This document shows positions 8,971-18,200 of a DNA stretch of 64,000 nucleotides, in pieces. Location: contig JBAJFE010000026.1 of assembly GCA_037903355.1 (NCBI GenBank), positions 6,820,001 through 6,884,000 of the forward strand. The letters are read 5' to 3'. Under the pieces are notes generated by a model, which saw only the letters and a program-made list of their open reading frames with translations, was not told the DNA's origin and ran no database searches. The translations under genes and the position numbers were made by a program. The stretch comes from Trichuris trichiura (Eukaryota > Nematoda > Enoplea > Trichinellida > Trichuridae). The stretch's first letter is position 1, and each line of letters opens with the position of its first letter.

Positions 8971-9172
8971 ATGAACAGGGGCGTATTGACGGAGCAAGAT
9001 TACGTTCGTTTTATCCACAGAGTGCTTCGAAACTTAGAACTCTTCGTACCGACTCACTTTATCGACAGCTATGCAATTGAAGAGGTGTACATCCATTGTA
9101 TGAGTTCAATTTTGAGGATGACTGATTGGTTCGCGATAAAGTTTTTAAAATGATTTCCTTCTCTACTCTTAG

Positions 9173-12100
9173 ACGTCGATTGTTGGTTCAATTGACCGAG
9201 AAGCGGATGACAAAATAACCACGTTGAATCCGGAAAGAATAGCGGCCAAAAAAAGAATGTTTCGCCGGTTAACAATCGACGAGGAGCGCTCGGGCACCTA
9301 CTATCGTCAGGAGCAAATGGGCACCAAGCAAGACAAGAAAACCCTTTTGGAACACCTATGCAACCTGAGTATTGAAGAGCCGGTGATCCCGGTGCGCAAA
9401 ACAGGCATTATATGCACCATTGGTACGCGTTTGTCCGCCGACTACCTTTTATTCATAGTACTTTCAAGGGCCCGCCTCGAGGTCAGTAGATATGCTGGTC
9501 AAGATGATGGTCAATGGAATGAACATTGCCCGATTGAACTTTTCGCACGGCTCGCACGAGGTGAGAGTGAAAGTTCAATCCATTAACCTAATAAGGAAAA
9601 CTTTGGCCATTGCCCTGTCGGCCATTGAAGTGGCCGAATTTCGATCTTTCCTCTTTACTTGCCAAGCGAAGATGGGCGATATTGAAAAATGCTGTTCGAT
9701 TATTTTCCGTCTTGACGAGACGGCGCGGCGAGCGATGTCGACCACTTTTTCATGCTTAAAAAGAAGGCTTAGCTTATTCTCGCTGATATAGCACCGTCTA
9801 TCTTCTATTGGCTAGTTTCCAATAAGGCTACGAATCATAGTTGTCGAAATGACGCCATTTCGCCTACGTGTGTCGTCATGTAGGCCGGCAAACACGCGAA
9901 GAGTTCAACTTTTTAAAACTATATATGCTAGACAATATCTTTAACGTTTTACGAATGTCCGTGCAGTCAACGTTCGTTCGCTTTTGATGTCCTTGCCAGT
10001 GTGCGGAGAGAAGTTCTTTGAACTTTTTGAGGATTCTTGTTCATCTCCACGCTTTTAGGTTGCGCCTGGCGGTAGCAAATGAGCGCGGCCCATTTGCTAC
10101 CGCCTGAGAGAACACGGGCATTTTTTCTACCTTTTTTTTCTAAAAATAATTTCTTTAAGAGCTTTCGGCATTTGAGTAAGTCTGAAGTTCCAATTACGAG
10201 ACGACTGGAGGAAAGTTGCTTCGCAGCCTATTACCAACCATTTCCGCTTTGAGATTTTCCATTTCGTTTGGTCTTCGGCTGCCCTGGTGGCAGTAAGATT
10301 CGCGGATCAATAAGCTTTCTAAAAAGCTTGCCAATCAGCGGTTTTAACAAACTTGTTACGCGGGAAGTAATGAAGCTTCAAGAAAAGTAGCTTAGTTTCG
10401 CGAGGACGCCTTTAGACTTTATTTTATTTTCTTGACTGGCTTAATAATGAAAGTGGAATGCGCGGTCGCGTTCTTGAAAAGTCAGGTTAACAGCTTTGCT
10501 ACGCAGTGCTTTTTAATGATGCGCAGGTTGTTTGAATCATACGGTATGTTAGTTGTTTTCTCCGTCGCAACGCGAAGGTTCTAAATTGACGGCGTCTGGA
10601 CGTATAAAGTTTAACGCCGCTTCAGCATACCCTAAAGCAATTTTTAGTATCAAACAGAAGGTTAAGTCTAAACATTTTTGCGTCAAAACGTCCTCGCGTC
10701 GTAACGGTCATGTCCAGTTGGACGCGGCGGCGCTTCATTGGCTGCATTGTTCATTTTTGCTTTTTTTTATTTGGCAAGAAGAAAAATAAAATGCGCGTAC
10801 TGTACACTTGAGAGTCTGCTAACTGATTCGCAGGTTGGCGCTAATGCGATAAAGTGCGCAATTTGAAAAATTTTCAGTACCACGCGGAAACTATTGAGAA
10901 CATCCACGCGGCGGTCGGATGCTTCAATGAGCCTCGGGTGGTCGCCATCGCCTTGGATACGAAGGGACCCGAAATACGCACCGGAGTGTTTGCCTCGGTT
11001 AGCTATTGACAAATCATTGTTATCAAAAGGTGAATGCTTTTTTTTCTAAACAAAAAGGGCGTTGATTCAGAGAAGGATTTGAAAAAAGGCGAAAAGTTGC
11101 GTTTGACAACGGACGACAAGTACCAGGAAGCGTCTACGGAGTCTTTAGTCTACGTCGACTATAAGAACATAACATCAGTGCTGAGCGTAGGTTCCAGAGT
11201 CTTCATCGACGATGGTTTGATCAGTTTGAAAGTGGTCTCCGTCGGTAGGAATATCGAAGCACCTTGGACGACCTACGCTGAGGGTGTTTTCTCATTTCAG
11301 GTTCCGACTATTTGGATTGCGTGGTAGAAAATGGAGGTAAGCTCGGCAATCGCAAAGGCGTCAACCTGCCCGGTGCAATAGTGGATCTGCCCGCCGTGTC
11401 CGAAAAGGACATTCGGGATTTGCAATTCGCCATCAAAAATGACGTAAGCCTTTGTGTCGCTATGCAAGCGTGGATCAGCGCTTTTTTGTTCAACTTTAGG
11501 TGGACATAATTTTCGCGTCGTTCATTCGCAATGCCGAGGGCGTCAAAGCCATAAGAAAAGTGTTGGGCGAAGCCGGGCAGCACATAAAGGTGGTTTCCAA
11601 AATTGAGAACCAAGAGGGCGTTGCCAAGTGTGATCCCTTAAGCTTTCCTCGTTCCTTCAGCCCTTCTATTTGCCCCTTTTCAGCGCTGACGAAATTATAC
11701 AAGCCTCCGACGGAATCATGGTAGCTCGAGGAGATTTGGGCATTGAAATTCCGCCTGAAAAAGTGTTCATTGCCCAAAAGGCGATCATCGCCAAATGCAA
11801 AGTAGCCGGCAAACCGGTCATCTGTGCCACTCAGATGTTGGAGTCTATGATTTACAAACCTCGACCAACGCGGGCCGAGAGCAGCGACATTGCTAACGCC
11901 GTTTTGGATGGCGCCGATTGCGTCATGCTGTCCGGAGAAACAGCCAAGGGCGCATATCCATTGGAGGCTGTCCAAATCATGCACGAGGTACGCACCAGTG
12001 TCTTCAAGTAACAGCTAAGAACAGACCATTTCCAAATGCGCGTTAGCGTTTAGGCTTTGCTTTTTAAAGACCATTTCATCCAGCTAAAAGCTTGCATTAA

Positions 12101-14822
12101 ATAACTACTGAGAATTAAATTCAAACATTTGAAATTACAGTAAGCGATAAGTAGGATTGTAGGTATGTAGGTGTCATCTTCAATAGACAACTAAGAACAG
12201 ACCATTTCCGAATGCGCATTAGGGCTTAAGCTTTGCTTCTTAAAGACTATTTCATCCAGCTAAAGGCCTGCATTAGAAAACTACTAAGAATTAAATTCAA
12301 ACATTTGAAATTTCAGTAAGCGATAAGTAGGTTTGTAGGTGAATATGTCTTCTTCAAGAGACAACTAAGAACAGACCATTTCCGAATGCGCATTAGGGCT
12401 TAAGCTTTGCTTCTTAAAGACTGTTTCATCCAGCTAAAAGCCTGCATTAGAAAACTACTGAGAATCAAATTTAAACATTTGAAATTACAGTAAGCGATAA
12501 GTAGGTTTGTAGGTATGTAGGTGTCTTCTTCAAGAGACAACTAAGAAAAGATCATTTCTAAATGCGCACTAGCGTTTAAGGTTTGCTTTTTAAAGACTAT
12601 TTCATCCAGCTAAAAGCCTACATTAGAAAACTACTGAGAATGAAATTCAAACATTTGAAATTACAGTAAGCGATAAGTAGGTTTGTAGGTGAGTATGTCT
12701 TCTTCAAGAGACAACTAAGAACAGACCATTTCCGAATGCGCATTAGAGTTTAAGCTTTGCTTCTTAAAGACTATTTTATCCAGCTAAAAGCCTGCATTAG
12801 AAAACTACTGAGAATGAAATTCAAACATTTGAAATTACAGTAAGCGATAAGTAGGTTTGTAGGTGAATATGTCTTCTTCAAGAGACAACTAAGAAAAGAT
12901 CATTTCCAGATGCGCATTAGCCTTTAAGCTTTGCTTCTTAAAGACCATTTCATCCAAATAAAAGCCTGCATTAGAAAACTGCTGAGAATTAGATTCAAAC
13001 ATTTGAAATTACAGTAAGCGATAAAAAGGTTTGTAGGTAAGTAGGTGTTTTCTTCAAGAGACAACTAAGAACAGACCATTTCCAAATGCGCATTAGCCTT
13101 TAAGCTTTGCTTCTTAAAGACTATTTCATCCAGCTAAAAGCCTGCATTAGGAAACTACTGAGAATTAAATTCAAACATTTGAAATTACAGTACGCGATAA
13201 GTAGGTTTGTAGGTAAGTAGGTGTCTTTTTCAAGAGACAACTAAGAACAGACTATTTCCAAATGCGCATTAGCGTTTATGCTTTCCTTTTTAAAGACCAT
13301 TTCATCCAGCCTAAAAGCCTGCATTAGAAAACTACTGAGAATTAAATTCAAACATTTGAAATTACAGTAAGCAATAAGTAGGTTTGTAAGTAGGTGTCTT
13401 CAAGGGACAACTAAGAACAGACCATTTCCAAATGCGCGTTAGCGTTTAAGCTTTGCTTTTTAAAGACTATTTCATCCAGCTAAAAGCCTGCATTATAAAA
13501 CTACTGAGAATTAAATTCAAACATTTGAAATTATAGTAAGCGATAAGTAGGTTTCGTCGAAAAAGAAAATGCGCAGTTCAGTTGTTCGAGATGTTGCCTT
13601 ATGAAATTTTAACTTAATTCAGATTTGTCGACAAGCCGAGGCGGCCTATTATCACAACAGCTTCTTTAACGAGCTTTTGGCCATCACTCCTCGTCCTACG
13701 AACGCCGCGCATACGGTTGCCATTGCGGCCACCTCGGCGGCCATGATGTGCAACGCTTCGGCCATCATATTGGTCACCACAACCGGCAGGTATGGTTTAG
13801 GGTTAAATAGTTTTTTTGTTTAAATGCAAAAAACGAAACATATTCGGGGAGAGCTATTTGCTTTGGTCGGTCGAGAAGAAAGCGGACGCAGCGGAAAACG
13901 AATGCGCGCGCTCGGTCACGCAAGCGGCCTTTACACGATGAACGTAGAGCCAAGTGACCATTTTGGGTTATTTTAGATCCGGTGAGATAATATCTCAAAA
14001 ACGACCGATCTGTCCGATTCTGGCCGTAACGCGCAATCCCAGGAACTGCCGTCAACTACACTTGTTCTATGGCGTTAATCCCATCTTCTTTCAGCGTATG
14101 GCAACAGCTCTGTCTGTCTCTCTCTCTCTCTGTACTCTATGTATTCTCTTCTTCGCAAACGCGTTTTCGCTTGACATTTTTCTTCTGTTGCCTGTTTTGC
14201 CGTACGACTTTTCGCGCTAACAATATTTCACTTTCTCGCTGTCTATTTCTAGCTTAGCCGATTAGTTAAACGGCAGATTGCACGCAGCGATGGCGCGCAG
14301 CTTTGCGCAAGTTGTGTACTCCCAATTTTTTGTTTTCTTTTTTGTCGTACCGTAACGCTGGACGTTATGTCTTGCTTTATTTATAGAACCGCCGCGTTGG
14401 TTTCCAAATATCGGCCGCCTTGTCTTGTCATATCGGTAGTTCGCGACTGGCATATTTCTAGAAGCCTTCACTTGCACTACGGAGTATATCCATGCATGAT
14501 GCTTGGTAGGAGTGTAGCTGTTTTGTCAAATTTGTTTTTACTTTATTTTTCTCTTTCTCTCTCTCTCTCTGTCTTTCTGTCGCTCTGAGGAGATTACTAA
14601 CGCGTTGCTTGTCGCCATCGTACCAGCTAATGCTTGTTTTCAGAGCCGCGAGATCCCGACTGGTCAACGGACGTGGATAAACGAATCAACTTTGGCATCA
14701 AGGCGGGAAAACAGCGAGGCTTCATTCACGCCGGCGATATGTTGGTTGTAGTGACCGGATGGCGACAGGGTGCCGGATTCACTAACACAATGCGCGTCAT
14801 TGAAGCACCTGCGGATCCGTAA
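9173..14822 (+). CDS. Pyruvate kinase (multi-exon)
   Basis: Makes pyruvate and ATP from phosphoenolpyruvate and ADP, the last step of cytosolic glycolysis. Exons, approximately: 9173-9422, 9469-9560, 10878-10997, 11073-11244, 11301-11443, 11500-11627, 11684-11987, 13623-13789, then either 13977-14095 or 14387-14505, then 14644-14822. Family landmarks in order: [33 protein letters not shown], a B-domain exon ([12 protein letters not shown]), the active-site signature [11 protein letters not shown] with the catalytic Lys, [32 protein letters not shown], and the C-terminal [15 protein letters not shown]. The frame is open back to the acceptor at 9172, so the start is either Met 9258 or in an upstream exon. 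One candidate is 8971 (ATG) spliced at 9084, which keeps frame but adds an N-terminus not typical of the family. The 1.6-kb intron 11988-13622 is filled by a tandem repeat. Confidence 0.95.
12010..13555. repeat. Intronic tandem array, nine copies of about 175 bp
   Basis: CTAAGA of the repeated (CA)ACTAAGAAMAGAYCATTTC block occurs at 12015, 12191, 12365, 12541, 12715, 12889, 13065, 13241 and 13411, so steps are 176, 174, 176, 174, 174, 176, 176 and 170 bp. Every unit contains CATTTCATCCAGC-TAAAAGCC, AAACTACTGAGAATTAAATTC and GCGATAAGTAGGTTTGTAGG. Differences are scattered point changes and small indels. It lies wholly within one pyruvate kinase intron. Confidence 0.97.
13977..14095 (+). other. 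Pyruvate kinase alternative exon A (119 nt)
   Basis: Acceptor TTTTAG at 13971-13976, donor GTATGG at 14096. It enters in phase 2 (completing Arg after TTTG) and leaves in phase 1, giving 39 whole codons. It encodes the C-domain segment containing [10 protein letters not shown] and LHLFYGVNP, close to the family consensus. It aligns without gaps to exon B, and either exon joins 13789 to 14644 in frame. Confidence 0.85.
14108..14135 (+). promoter_or_regulatory. CU-rich tract downstream of exon A
   Basis: A (TCTC)n/TGTC run just inside the intron between exons A and B. Such UCUU/CUCUCU tracts bind polypyrimidine-tract-binding proteins in animals. The regulatory role here is inferred. Confidence 0.45.
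14387..14505 (+). other. Pyruvate kinase alternative exon B (119 nt)
   Basis: Acceptor TTATAG at 14381-14386, donor GTAGGAG at 14506. Same length and phases as exon A. It encodes [17 protein letters not shown] and LHLHYGVYP. Gapless comparison with exon A gives 14 identities in 39 residues by my count (S6, R9, P10, C12, V17, R19, R25, L27-H28-L29, Y31-G32-V33, P35). The consensus AVTRNP is replaced by SVVRDW, while the KYRP part is closer to consensus than in A. Including both exons, or neither, shifts the frame because 119 leaves a remainder of 2. Confidence 0.85.
14540..14588 (+). promoter_or_regulatory. CU-rich tract downstream of exon B
   Basis: A second long CU repeat (TTTCTCTTTCTCTC... 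GTCTTTCTGTCGCTCTG) in the 138-bp intron after exon B. Together with 14108-14135 it brackets exon B. A role in exon choice is inferred. Confidence 0.45.
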
Positions 14823-15213
14823 TTGATGTCTGACGATGCGTGCCTGCGCGTAGACTTTATTGTGGGACGATTTAATCGCCGGACGCCTTTTCGTTTTCAA
14901 GTAGTTTTACCTTTCGTCCCGCATAGGCGTGCACCCATTGTGTCTTTGTTACCGTTTTAGGTTTTTCGTCCCAAATGTTTTTTTTAGACATCTCCTTCGA
15001 AGCAGTTCGCAATCTCAGCGCTCCTTATAAGGGGCTGTAAAAGAATAATTTTACTTCCTGACGTGTTGACTTTTCGTAGTTTTAACTACCGCGTGCCGCC
15101 CTGTTCCTTTGTTTCTTTTTCTTACAAACATCCCTGCGTGTGGCAGTTAAAATGATTTCAATGTGTCACACTGTTGCCTTTGCGCGGGCGCGTGTCCAAG
15201 GCGAGCTATATGG

Positions 15214-18200
15214 TCAGCTTGGCTTGTTGTCACTACGCAACTTGTCCAAAAAACCACCAAGATACATTGGATCAATGCCGGGAACGCTCATCACTATACC
15301 AACCGACCGTTCCTTGTTGTTTTTCAACTCCGCGTCCACCACTGACGGTTTTGAAGATTCGTTTGATTCCTTCGGGCGAAATAGTAGTTGGTTAGCCAAC
15401 CGTTTTAGCACATTGGTGGCCAGTCGTCCAGCAAAGTTGCCATCGCGTAAGGAGTCGACAAGTCGTTTAGCCTCGTCCTCTCTTTGCAATAGTTGGACAA
15501 TAGTTTGAAGCGCCTTTTGGGTGTCCATGGGCGCTTGTTGTCTTTTTTCTTTTCTTTTTGCCGACTGAAGAAGTGGCGGCATCAGTTGGCCAAAAAGTCG
15601 CTGAAAGAAATCGCCGGCGCCTACAGACTGACGTAAGCGATCCAACGGGTTTCCACCGGCCAATATGGAACTTTGGACAGTTCTAAGAAGAGAGACTACT
15701 TCGTTGTTACGTTCGTTCTCCTCCTGATCGAATGGTTGTCGTAATTGTTTGACACCCAAGTTGACACCTTCAGCTTTGACGTCAGCATCTTCGTCGATCA
15801 TTTGAAAGCTGACCGGTTGCAATCCCAATGGCATTGGAACGTACAGACCGGTAAGGACGTTGTCAGCTTCCTTTACGGCACCGTTGACCGCGCCAAAGCG
15901 GCTAAGCAGAGTGGCTGGTTTTTGAAAATTTGGAGTCGACAAGCTGCCTTCGATGCTGCTTTTGTGTTTACGCTTGTAGTAGAGTCCCTTAGGAATGAGC
16001 GAGTTGAAATTGCCGCCAAAACCCGTCGCTGGATAGAACGCGTCGGCTGGCGGCTCCGGCACAGTGTCGGTACGCCCAAAAAGCAACCCGCCCTGATAAC
16101 GTCCGTCGTTGTTCGGTAGGCTAAATCCTCTGGAGAAAATTGGTCGAATTGATCGACCGGCGGTGTTCACAAAGGCATTGCTTCTTGGCGGTTCCATGAC
16201 CGTTGCATCTGCAATTACAACTTTACGCGCGCGGTCGTGTAAAGAGCATTGTTTTTGATTTGGAATGAATGAATAAATTTTTTTTCTTTTTACTTTCGAC
16301 AAGCGACCGTCGGGTTCTGCACAGCAAAGCTGCCGGCGAGAGCGAGCTGCGTTTTGCCCTCTAATGGAAATGTGCTCATTGAGACAGCGTTGGACGACTT
16401 CGACCAAAATTGGCAAACAAAGATCTGTCGGCTAAGTTTTCCGTTTCCATTCGTCCGCTCAATGTTTTACCGTTCATCCAACGTTTGGGCAGGTGGACAG
16501 CGCCCCGTAGACGAGTATCGTGGAATCCGTGATCGCCAATGCTAGCCGACTGACCGCTGGGCAGTTGCATGGCCAACGACGATTGCCTATAGTCGGCAAC
16601 ATTGGTAGAAGCTTTGAAAAGTACGTGGTCAGGCTGTTCGCGCGACTGGACATTCAACCAACTGAACAATGGTCCCGAAAGTCTCGGTTGAAATTCATTA
16701 GTCATTATTTCGTCAATTTTATTGGTCGACCGCCTCGGTTCCGGTTCCCTCAACGATTGCCACGTGTTGCTTAACATAATATTGTGTATGGACGGCTGAG
16801 ACGGGTCGATGGCTTTGGTCGATACGTCGGCTTCCTTCCTAATCGTTGGCGGCGGTCTAAGTGGAGCGGTCGTCTGCCTTTCTTTTTGTTCGCCATTTCT
16901 TCTGTCACAGACAAAGAAGGTTCAAGTCAGCCGTGTCAAGCCGAGTAACAAGAAAAAGTAATCATCACCCCTTAACGTTTTTTTCCTAGAAAATAAATCT
17001 ATTTCTTTCAAGCAGGTTCACCCGTAAGAAGAAGAAGAAGAATAAGAAGGTGCAACTGTCATCAATTGTCAAAAATGGGTGAAGGGTGTCCCAACCAAAA
17101 CCATTTTACCATAGGCTTTTGAACGAGCCAATGGTAGACTAATTGATCTTACAGCTTTTTCCTATTTCGTAACTTAGCTCTGTTCTCACCTTAGTTGCCC
17201 AATTAGGAATTGAACAATACTTGAATATATCTTACTTTGGTGATTTGATGGACAGCAATTGTATTGCTCTTTGATTCAGCTCAGTGAGCCGACTGACCGT
17301 CCGATCGCGATGAGTTGGAGCCGGAGAGCTGTACAAGTTGGGACGTTGCATAGTTACGAACGACGCTGGTTGACTTTGAGTGACCGTCTCCATTAAGACT
17401 TTTGTTGTTGTTCTTGTTGTCGTCGTCGTCGTTGTAGTTGTAGTAGTTGTTGACTCAGCTTCATCTTCCGGCGTACCATTCCCGCTGATCTCGTCGTAGT
17501 TCAACGATGATTCATTTACATGTTCAGTGCCGATCAATGGGCCAAAAGGATCCGGCGGTACAACAGACTTTTCCGGCTGCTTCGAGTCGTCTTTTTCAGC
17601 GCTGACACCGCCAAATACCGGAGATAGGAAGCTAAGCGGACCACCGGAAGCGACATTGGGTTTTTGCTGTTGATGAGGCAGACCAACGACGGCAAAAGGA
17701 AAAGTGGGATCACCTCCTTTTGGTTCGTTGTTGAAGAATGAGCCCGCAATTGGATCGCTAACGATGGACGGTTTGACCGACTGAATCAAGTTCTGAACAA
17801 GTCCTTGAACGACTTGAGCCACCGGGAATACTTGGCTGCTCGATGACGATGATGATGATGCTGCATTGGAGACGGCCGCCGCGCTGGGTGCCTGCGCTCC
17901 CAAGACGATGCCATTTTTGGCCAGTATATCAAGGAAGGCATTACCCATACCGGGAGCTTGATTTTCCTGCGAGTCTACTATGATGGATACCATCTTTTCC
18001 GTAGGCACATTCTTAAGTAGCGCTGCCGATTGGGGGTCAACTTTTTCGTATACTTCAATTTGCCTCTTCAACGCGGCGTAGGCCATTTTCTCCTTGCTTT
18101 TACGAAGCAGACCGTCGAGCAGCGAAAGACCCAATTCCTTACCAATACTTTGCACCGACTGACCCAAGCAGCAGTGGCTAGCTGAAAAGTAACAGCTTCT

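Follow-up and report, generated by a model that had tools for sequence, protein, structure and literature searches.

The 64,000-nt stretch of Trichuris trichiura DNA analysed here (the window) carried a pyruvate kinase gene on its plus strand. The rebuilt gene consisted of eight shared upstream exons, two alternative exons designated A and B, and a shared last coding exon (Table 1), with matching phases throughout and GT/AG borders at every intron. The start of the coding sequence was assumed to be the first ATG, at position 9257. The introns flanking the pair were 187, 291, and 138 nt long, and among the seven other introns five measured 46-60 nt and the remaining two 1317 and 1635 nt. The TACTAAC heptamer upstream of the last acceptor may act as the branch point of that intron. 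The 1635-nt intron, which precedes the 167-nt exon, consisted almost entirely of a tandem repeat (12001-13554) with a 176-bp unit in about 8.9 copies; at least nine matches to the repeat unit were found in the whole genome, all of them within this array. On the minus strand, a converging open frame of 405 residues (15214-16431, stop to stop) ended about 390 bp past the pyruvate kinase stop codon. No Rfam family was matched in the region 9000-15200 at E <= 1; for the C. elegans gene F25H5.3 (pyk-1), an intronic snoRNA is given in PMC2474577.

Table 1. Features of the pyruvate kinase gene in the window and of its paralogue elsewhere in the genome
Feature	Position	Strand	Remarks
Seven upstream coding exons	9257-9422, 9469-9560, 10878-10997, 11058-11244, 11301-11443, 11500-11627, 11684-11987	+	Borders and phases consistent; encode the PK barrel (PF00224)
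Shared 167-nt exon	13623-13789	+	Residues of PKM exon 9/10; ends TTTG/R in phase 2
Alternative exon A, 119 nt	13977-14095	+	PKM-like; AVTRNP kept
(CT)7 run	14118-14131	+	Intron after A; starts 23 nt past the last base of the exon
Alternative exon B, 119 nt	14387-14505	+	Diverged segment; SVVRDW
(CT)7 run	14557-14570	+	Intron after B; starts 52 nt past the last base of the exon
TACTAAC, branch-point-like	14595-14601	+	Precedes the final acceptor; one of four on the plus strand of the window
Shared last coding exon	14644-14822	+	Stop codon; residues aligned with PKM W482 and R489
Intronless pyruvate kinase	G000:C26:401871-403442		523 codons, intact, counted from the first ATG in view

The sequence-only reading had described A and B as homologous exons, either of which completes the enzyme while both or neither breaks the frame, and recomputation from the sequence bore out each part of this description. 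Both exons were 119 nt long, were entered in phase 2 and left in phase 1 between AG and GT borders, and encoded segments that aligned over 39 residues with 14 identities and no gap. The isoform with A and the isoform with B were each 534 aa long, whereas the joining of A to B led to a stop after 492 residues and the omission of both to a stop after 447. The BLOSUM62 score of A against B was 70, compared with a mean of -40.1 (sd 13.1) for shuffled sequences, and none of the 20,000 shuffles scored as high; the eight other frame combinations gave scores from -61 to +3. On the two strands of the window, 426 segments of 119 nt were bounded by AG and GT, 87 of which were open in the 2-to-1 frame. 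Among these 87, besides A itself only B scored positively against A, and the next segment scored -17. Pfam PK and PK_C matched both isoforms above their cut-offs, with PK_C at 107.6 bits for the isoform with A and 103.6 bits for that with B. The exon anatomy is solid.

The two exons were neighbours, similar to each other, and equal in length and frame, which are two of the criteria for a mutually exclusive pair given in PMC5740500. By a further criterion of that source, the junction reads of each exon bridge the other exon, and reads joining the two are absent unless such joining shifts the frame; the joining of A to B does shift it. The proposed mutually exclusive use of A and B is the sole frame-preserving reading of two exons that both show a sign of coding constraint; with the splicing itself predicted from the genomic sequence, we consider it very likely.

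In the numbering of PKM2, which was counted from the residue numbers given in papers, the swapped segment corresponded to residues 437-475. The pair began right after TTTGR, which aligned with KSGR of the FBP loop of PKM, in agreement with the placement proposed earlier; the segment opened at the equivalent of S437 in that loop and also contained the equivalent of H464 in the amino-acid pocket. Position 437 was S in A and T in B, whereas H464 and P471 were present in both exons and position 469 was V in both. At positions 454-457, A kept TRNP and B had VRDW, again as the sequence-only reading had it. The position of PKM K433 was occupied by T in the alignment of the window enzyme. Residues W482 and R489 of PKM, the latter an FBP residue, aligned with a W and an R encoded by the shared last exon. 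In PKM2, the mutation S437Y abolished the binding of FBP and H464A that of serine (PMC4072945, a conference abstract), and I469 contacts bound amino acids according to PMC10004559. The 39 swapped residues lie within the regulatory C-domain. Form A retains the ordinary PKM-like sequence, and the divergence of form B centres on TRNP and the helix that follows. It is plausible that the two forms differ in regulation and would answer metabolites differently.

The genome (72.7 Mb in 62 contigs) was searched with isoform A and with the B segment. In this genome the N-terminal domain of nematode cuticle collagen (PF01484) was matched 26 times, each time above the cut-off, as expected of a nematode; 14 control genomes gave no match, but the one known by name is a cyanobacterium, and these controls carry little information about other animals. 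Isoform A revealed a single further pyruvate kinase, encoded on contig 26 in a frame without interruption, that was 58% identical over query residues 24-531 and was matched by both Pfam PK and PK_C; the B segment revealed no additional copy, and one scan each of viral_contigs and genome_contigs showed no relatives outside this genome. The paralogue contained no intron, whereas nine introns lie between the coding exons of one isoform of the window gene. In a tree of residues 1-436 from four sequences, the paralogue and the window gene were grouped against PKM and Aedes 6du6 with a bootstrap of 100, and the identities of the paralogue over these residues were 264/425 with the window gene, 243/426 with PKM, and 235/410 with Aedes. 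Like a retrocopy, the gene on contig 26 was intronless and derived from the lineage of its parent. An A-rich stretch was seen by eye after its stop codon; at such an age, a poly(A) trace and direct repeats are expected to be eroded.

The relationship of the paralogue to the two exons was analysed on the 39-residue segment. The tree of seven sequences grouped the paralogue with B at a bootstrap of 94 (200 replicates), and the same pair was recovered in 98.6, 94.4, 98.5, and 93.4% of quartet bootstraps when PKM, PKLR, Aedes, and yeast, respectively, served as the outgroup. Among the seven sequences, P447 and V454 were found in B and the paralogue only. This grouping supports the entry of B into spliced mRNA, and the paralogue is probably an old copy of the isoform-B mRNA. 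Should this grouping be correct, the genome long ago took up a copy of an mRNA that contained B but not A, and the duplication that produced A and B is older still; the paralogue would then attest, with moderate support, to the past production of isoform B. In the paralogue, position 464 was Q and the equivalent of W482 was F, and with these two changes its control has probably been altered again.

The grouping with B might also have been produced by convergence or long-branch attraction, in which case the paralogue would have arisen before the duplication of A and B or from an A-type mRNA. The segment is short (39 residues), and the two rival trees were 4.97 log units worse and were not formally rejected (AU p of 0.055 and 0.056, from a test set that contained the best tree twice). 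In addition, the paralogue was identical to B at 17/39 positions and to A at 14/39 but reached 18/39 with both Aedes and PKLR, and its C-terminal part was fast-evolving, with 21/56 residues identical to the window gene. Such an origin is nevertheless rather unlikely in view of the bootstrap and quartet values and the two residues unique to B and the paralogue, and it concerns the fossil part of the interpretation alone and leaves the exon pair unaffected.

The distribution of nucleotide differences bears on whether both exons are in use. Of the 39 codons, A and B differed in 20 at the first position, in 13 at the second, and in 27 at the third (second versus third, p = 0.038), and the corresponding differences between B and the paralogue were 17, 8, and 28 of 39 (p = 0.0012). 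Nine of the ten comparable fourfold sites differed between B and the paralogue. This pattern suggests coding constraint on both exons, to which it lends modest support, because an unconstrained exon at such depth should lose its likeness and probably its frame. If one exon, more likely B, were instead a dying duplicate left out of splicing, a single isoform would be made. The exon pair is known here from genomic sequence alone, and B has lost several residues that other pyruvate kinases share, T454 and P449 among them. However, B retained its frame, its two splice borders, and R445, P446, R455, R461, H464, G468, and P471, and the enrichment of its differences from the paralogue at third positions also speaks against decay, which renders a dying duplicate improbable. 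More improbable still is a pair that acts mainly as an off switch, in which inclusion of both exons or of neither shifts the frame and lowers the amount of enzyme: both combinations do yield early stops, but a homologous, constrained second coding exon is unnecessary for this function, and the skipping of both would place the stop in the last exon, where the transcript may evade decay. We favour, with good confidence, two full-length pyruvate kinases from one gene, which would arise because the two copies of an exon duplicated long ago are spliced in a mutually exclusive manner.

A candidate for how the choice between A and B may be made was found in the introns next to the two exons. Two runs of (CT)5 or longer were found on the plus strand of the window and none on the minus strand, and one lay downstream of each alternative exon. 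Among 40-base stretches of the plus strand, those richest in pyrimidines were located downstream of B and contained the run in that intron. Overlapping matches to (CT)7 in the genome numbered 1,261 + 1,317, and among the 100 matches listed, from the first 3.5 Mb of contig 1, 13 clusters were counted by eye on both strands, about one per 270 kb. In mammals, according to PMC3498831, PTB/nPTB and hnRNP A1/A2 repress PKM exon 9. The position of the tracts together with this analogy hints that a PTB-like protein bound to the CU tract following each exon might bias the choice between A and B, while products with both exons or neither would be discarded through the frameshift. A model of the PTB/hnRNP-L family gave 15 partial matches on contigs 26 and 20 and none above the full-length cut-off; these matches may be other RRM proteins, since the model also matched one control (Synechococcus). 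Long-range intron pairing as a docking site and selector was considered and rejected, as the three introns did not pair above the level of their dinucleotide shuffles (z of -0.06, 1.52, and 0.35; 200 shuffles each). Steric exclusion through a very short intron between A and B was ruled out by its length of 291 nt. The sequence TGCATG, the binding motif of the Fox-1 family, was present at 14493-14498, inside B near the donor, and occurred 15 times on the plus strand of the window. The SL1 RNA gave no match in the genome, and likewise none in the control genomes, so this search was uninformative.

Together, these parts compose a fuller reading whose chances we regard as evenly balanced. Nematodes would have built a switch by duplicating the exon adjoining that of PKM1/PKM2, by which position 437, where the FBP site starts, and positions 464-471, a wall of the amino-acid pocket, are swapped in a single step. 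The switch would be so old that an mRNA of isoform B returned to the genome as a copy and persisted there as a separate gene. If this is true, the same alternative is encoded twice, once through splicing and once through a gene copy, and one isoform would survive as a record in the intronless paralogue. The textbook example of glycolysis rewired by splicing is PKM1/PKM2. A further exon duplication, in a different phylum and in the adjacent half of this regulatory region, would show that evolution revisited the spot, and the natural swap would separate the roles of the FBP loop, the turn at 454-457, and the amino-acid pocket.

Comparison with PKM clarified which segment had been duplicated. The window gene had exon lengths of 92, 187, 143 + 128 = 271, 304, and 167 nt, and these seem to equal the lengths or sums of PKM exons, namely 92, 187, 271, 151 + 153, and 167 nt, which suggests that old intron positions are shared. 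The last of these values was confirmed in PMC3498831, in which PKM exon 10 is 167 nt long. The exon preceding the pair had this same length and spanned the same residues as the PKM segment, with PKM IAREAEAAIYH aligned within it and its end, TTTG/R, facing KSGR of PKM. In both genes the boundary follows SG or TG and splits the R residue, the human boundary falling at exactly this residue. The sequence-only reading had proposed that the neighbouring segment was duplicated rather than the PKM1/PKM2 one, and this was confirmed: the residues swapped in PKM were covered by a single exon in the window gene, so the duplicated module is the segment just downstream. Duplication of the 56 residues up to the FBP loop defines the PKM1/PKM2 type, and in the window gene these residues were accordingly encoded once. 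An independent origin of the worm pair, which had also been claimed, would follow from the different segment duplicated, and nematodes may have evolved their own isoform switch, similar to PKM1/PKM2. Taken as a whole, the interpretation given in the sequence-only reading was partly supported.

As with PKM exons 9 and 10, the pair concerns the same enzyme and the same C-domain and consists of two homologous exons equal in length, only one of which would enter a given mRNA, and the alternative segments of both genes touch the FBP site. The difference is that PKM swaps a 56-residue segment (167-nt exons, PMC3498831), whereas the window gene swaps the following 39 residues (119 nt). No report of an exon pair of this kind in a nematode pyruvate kinase was found in the open-access literature. 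The nematode coq-2 exons 6a/6e likewise belong to a metabolic enzyme whose action is altered by mutually exclusive exons; coq-2 is, however, a different gene, in which substrate use in the active site is changed rather than a regulatory domain (PMC8659336). The pyruvate kinase of Daphnia pulex, also an invertebrate enzyme, is described in PMC7318467 as the product of two mRNAs with different 3' portions, one with exons 1-9 and the other with exons 1-7 plus 10-11. By that description, alternative C-terminal parts already have a precedent in an invertebrate pyruvate kinase.
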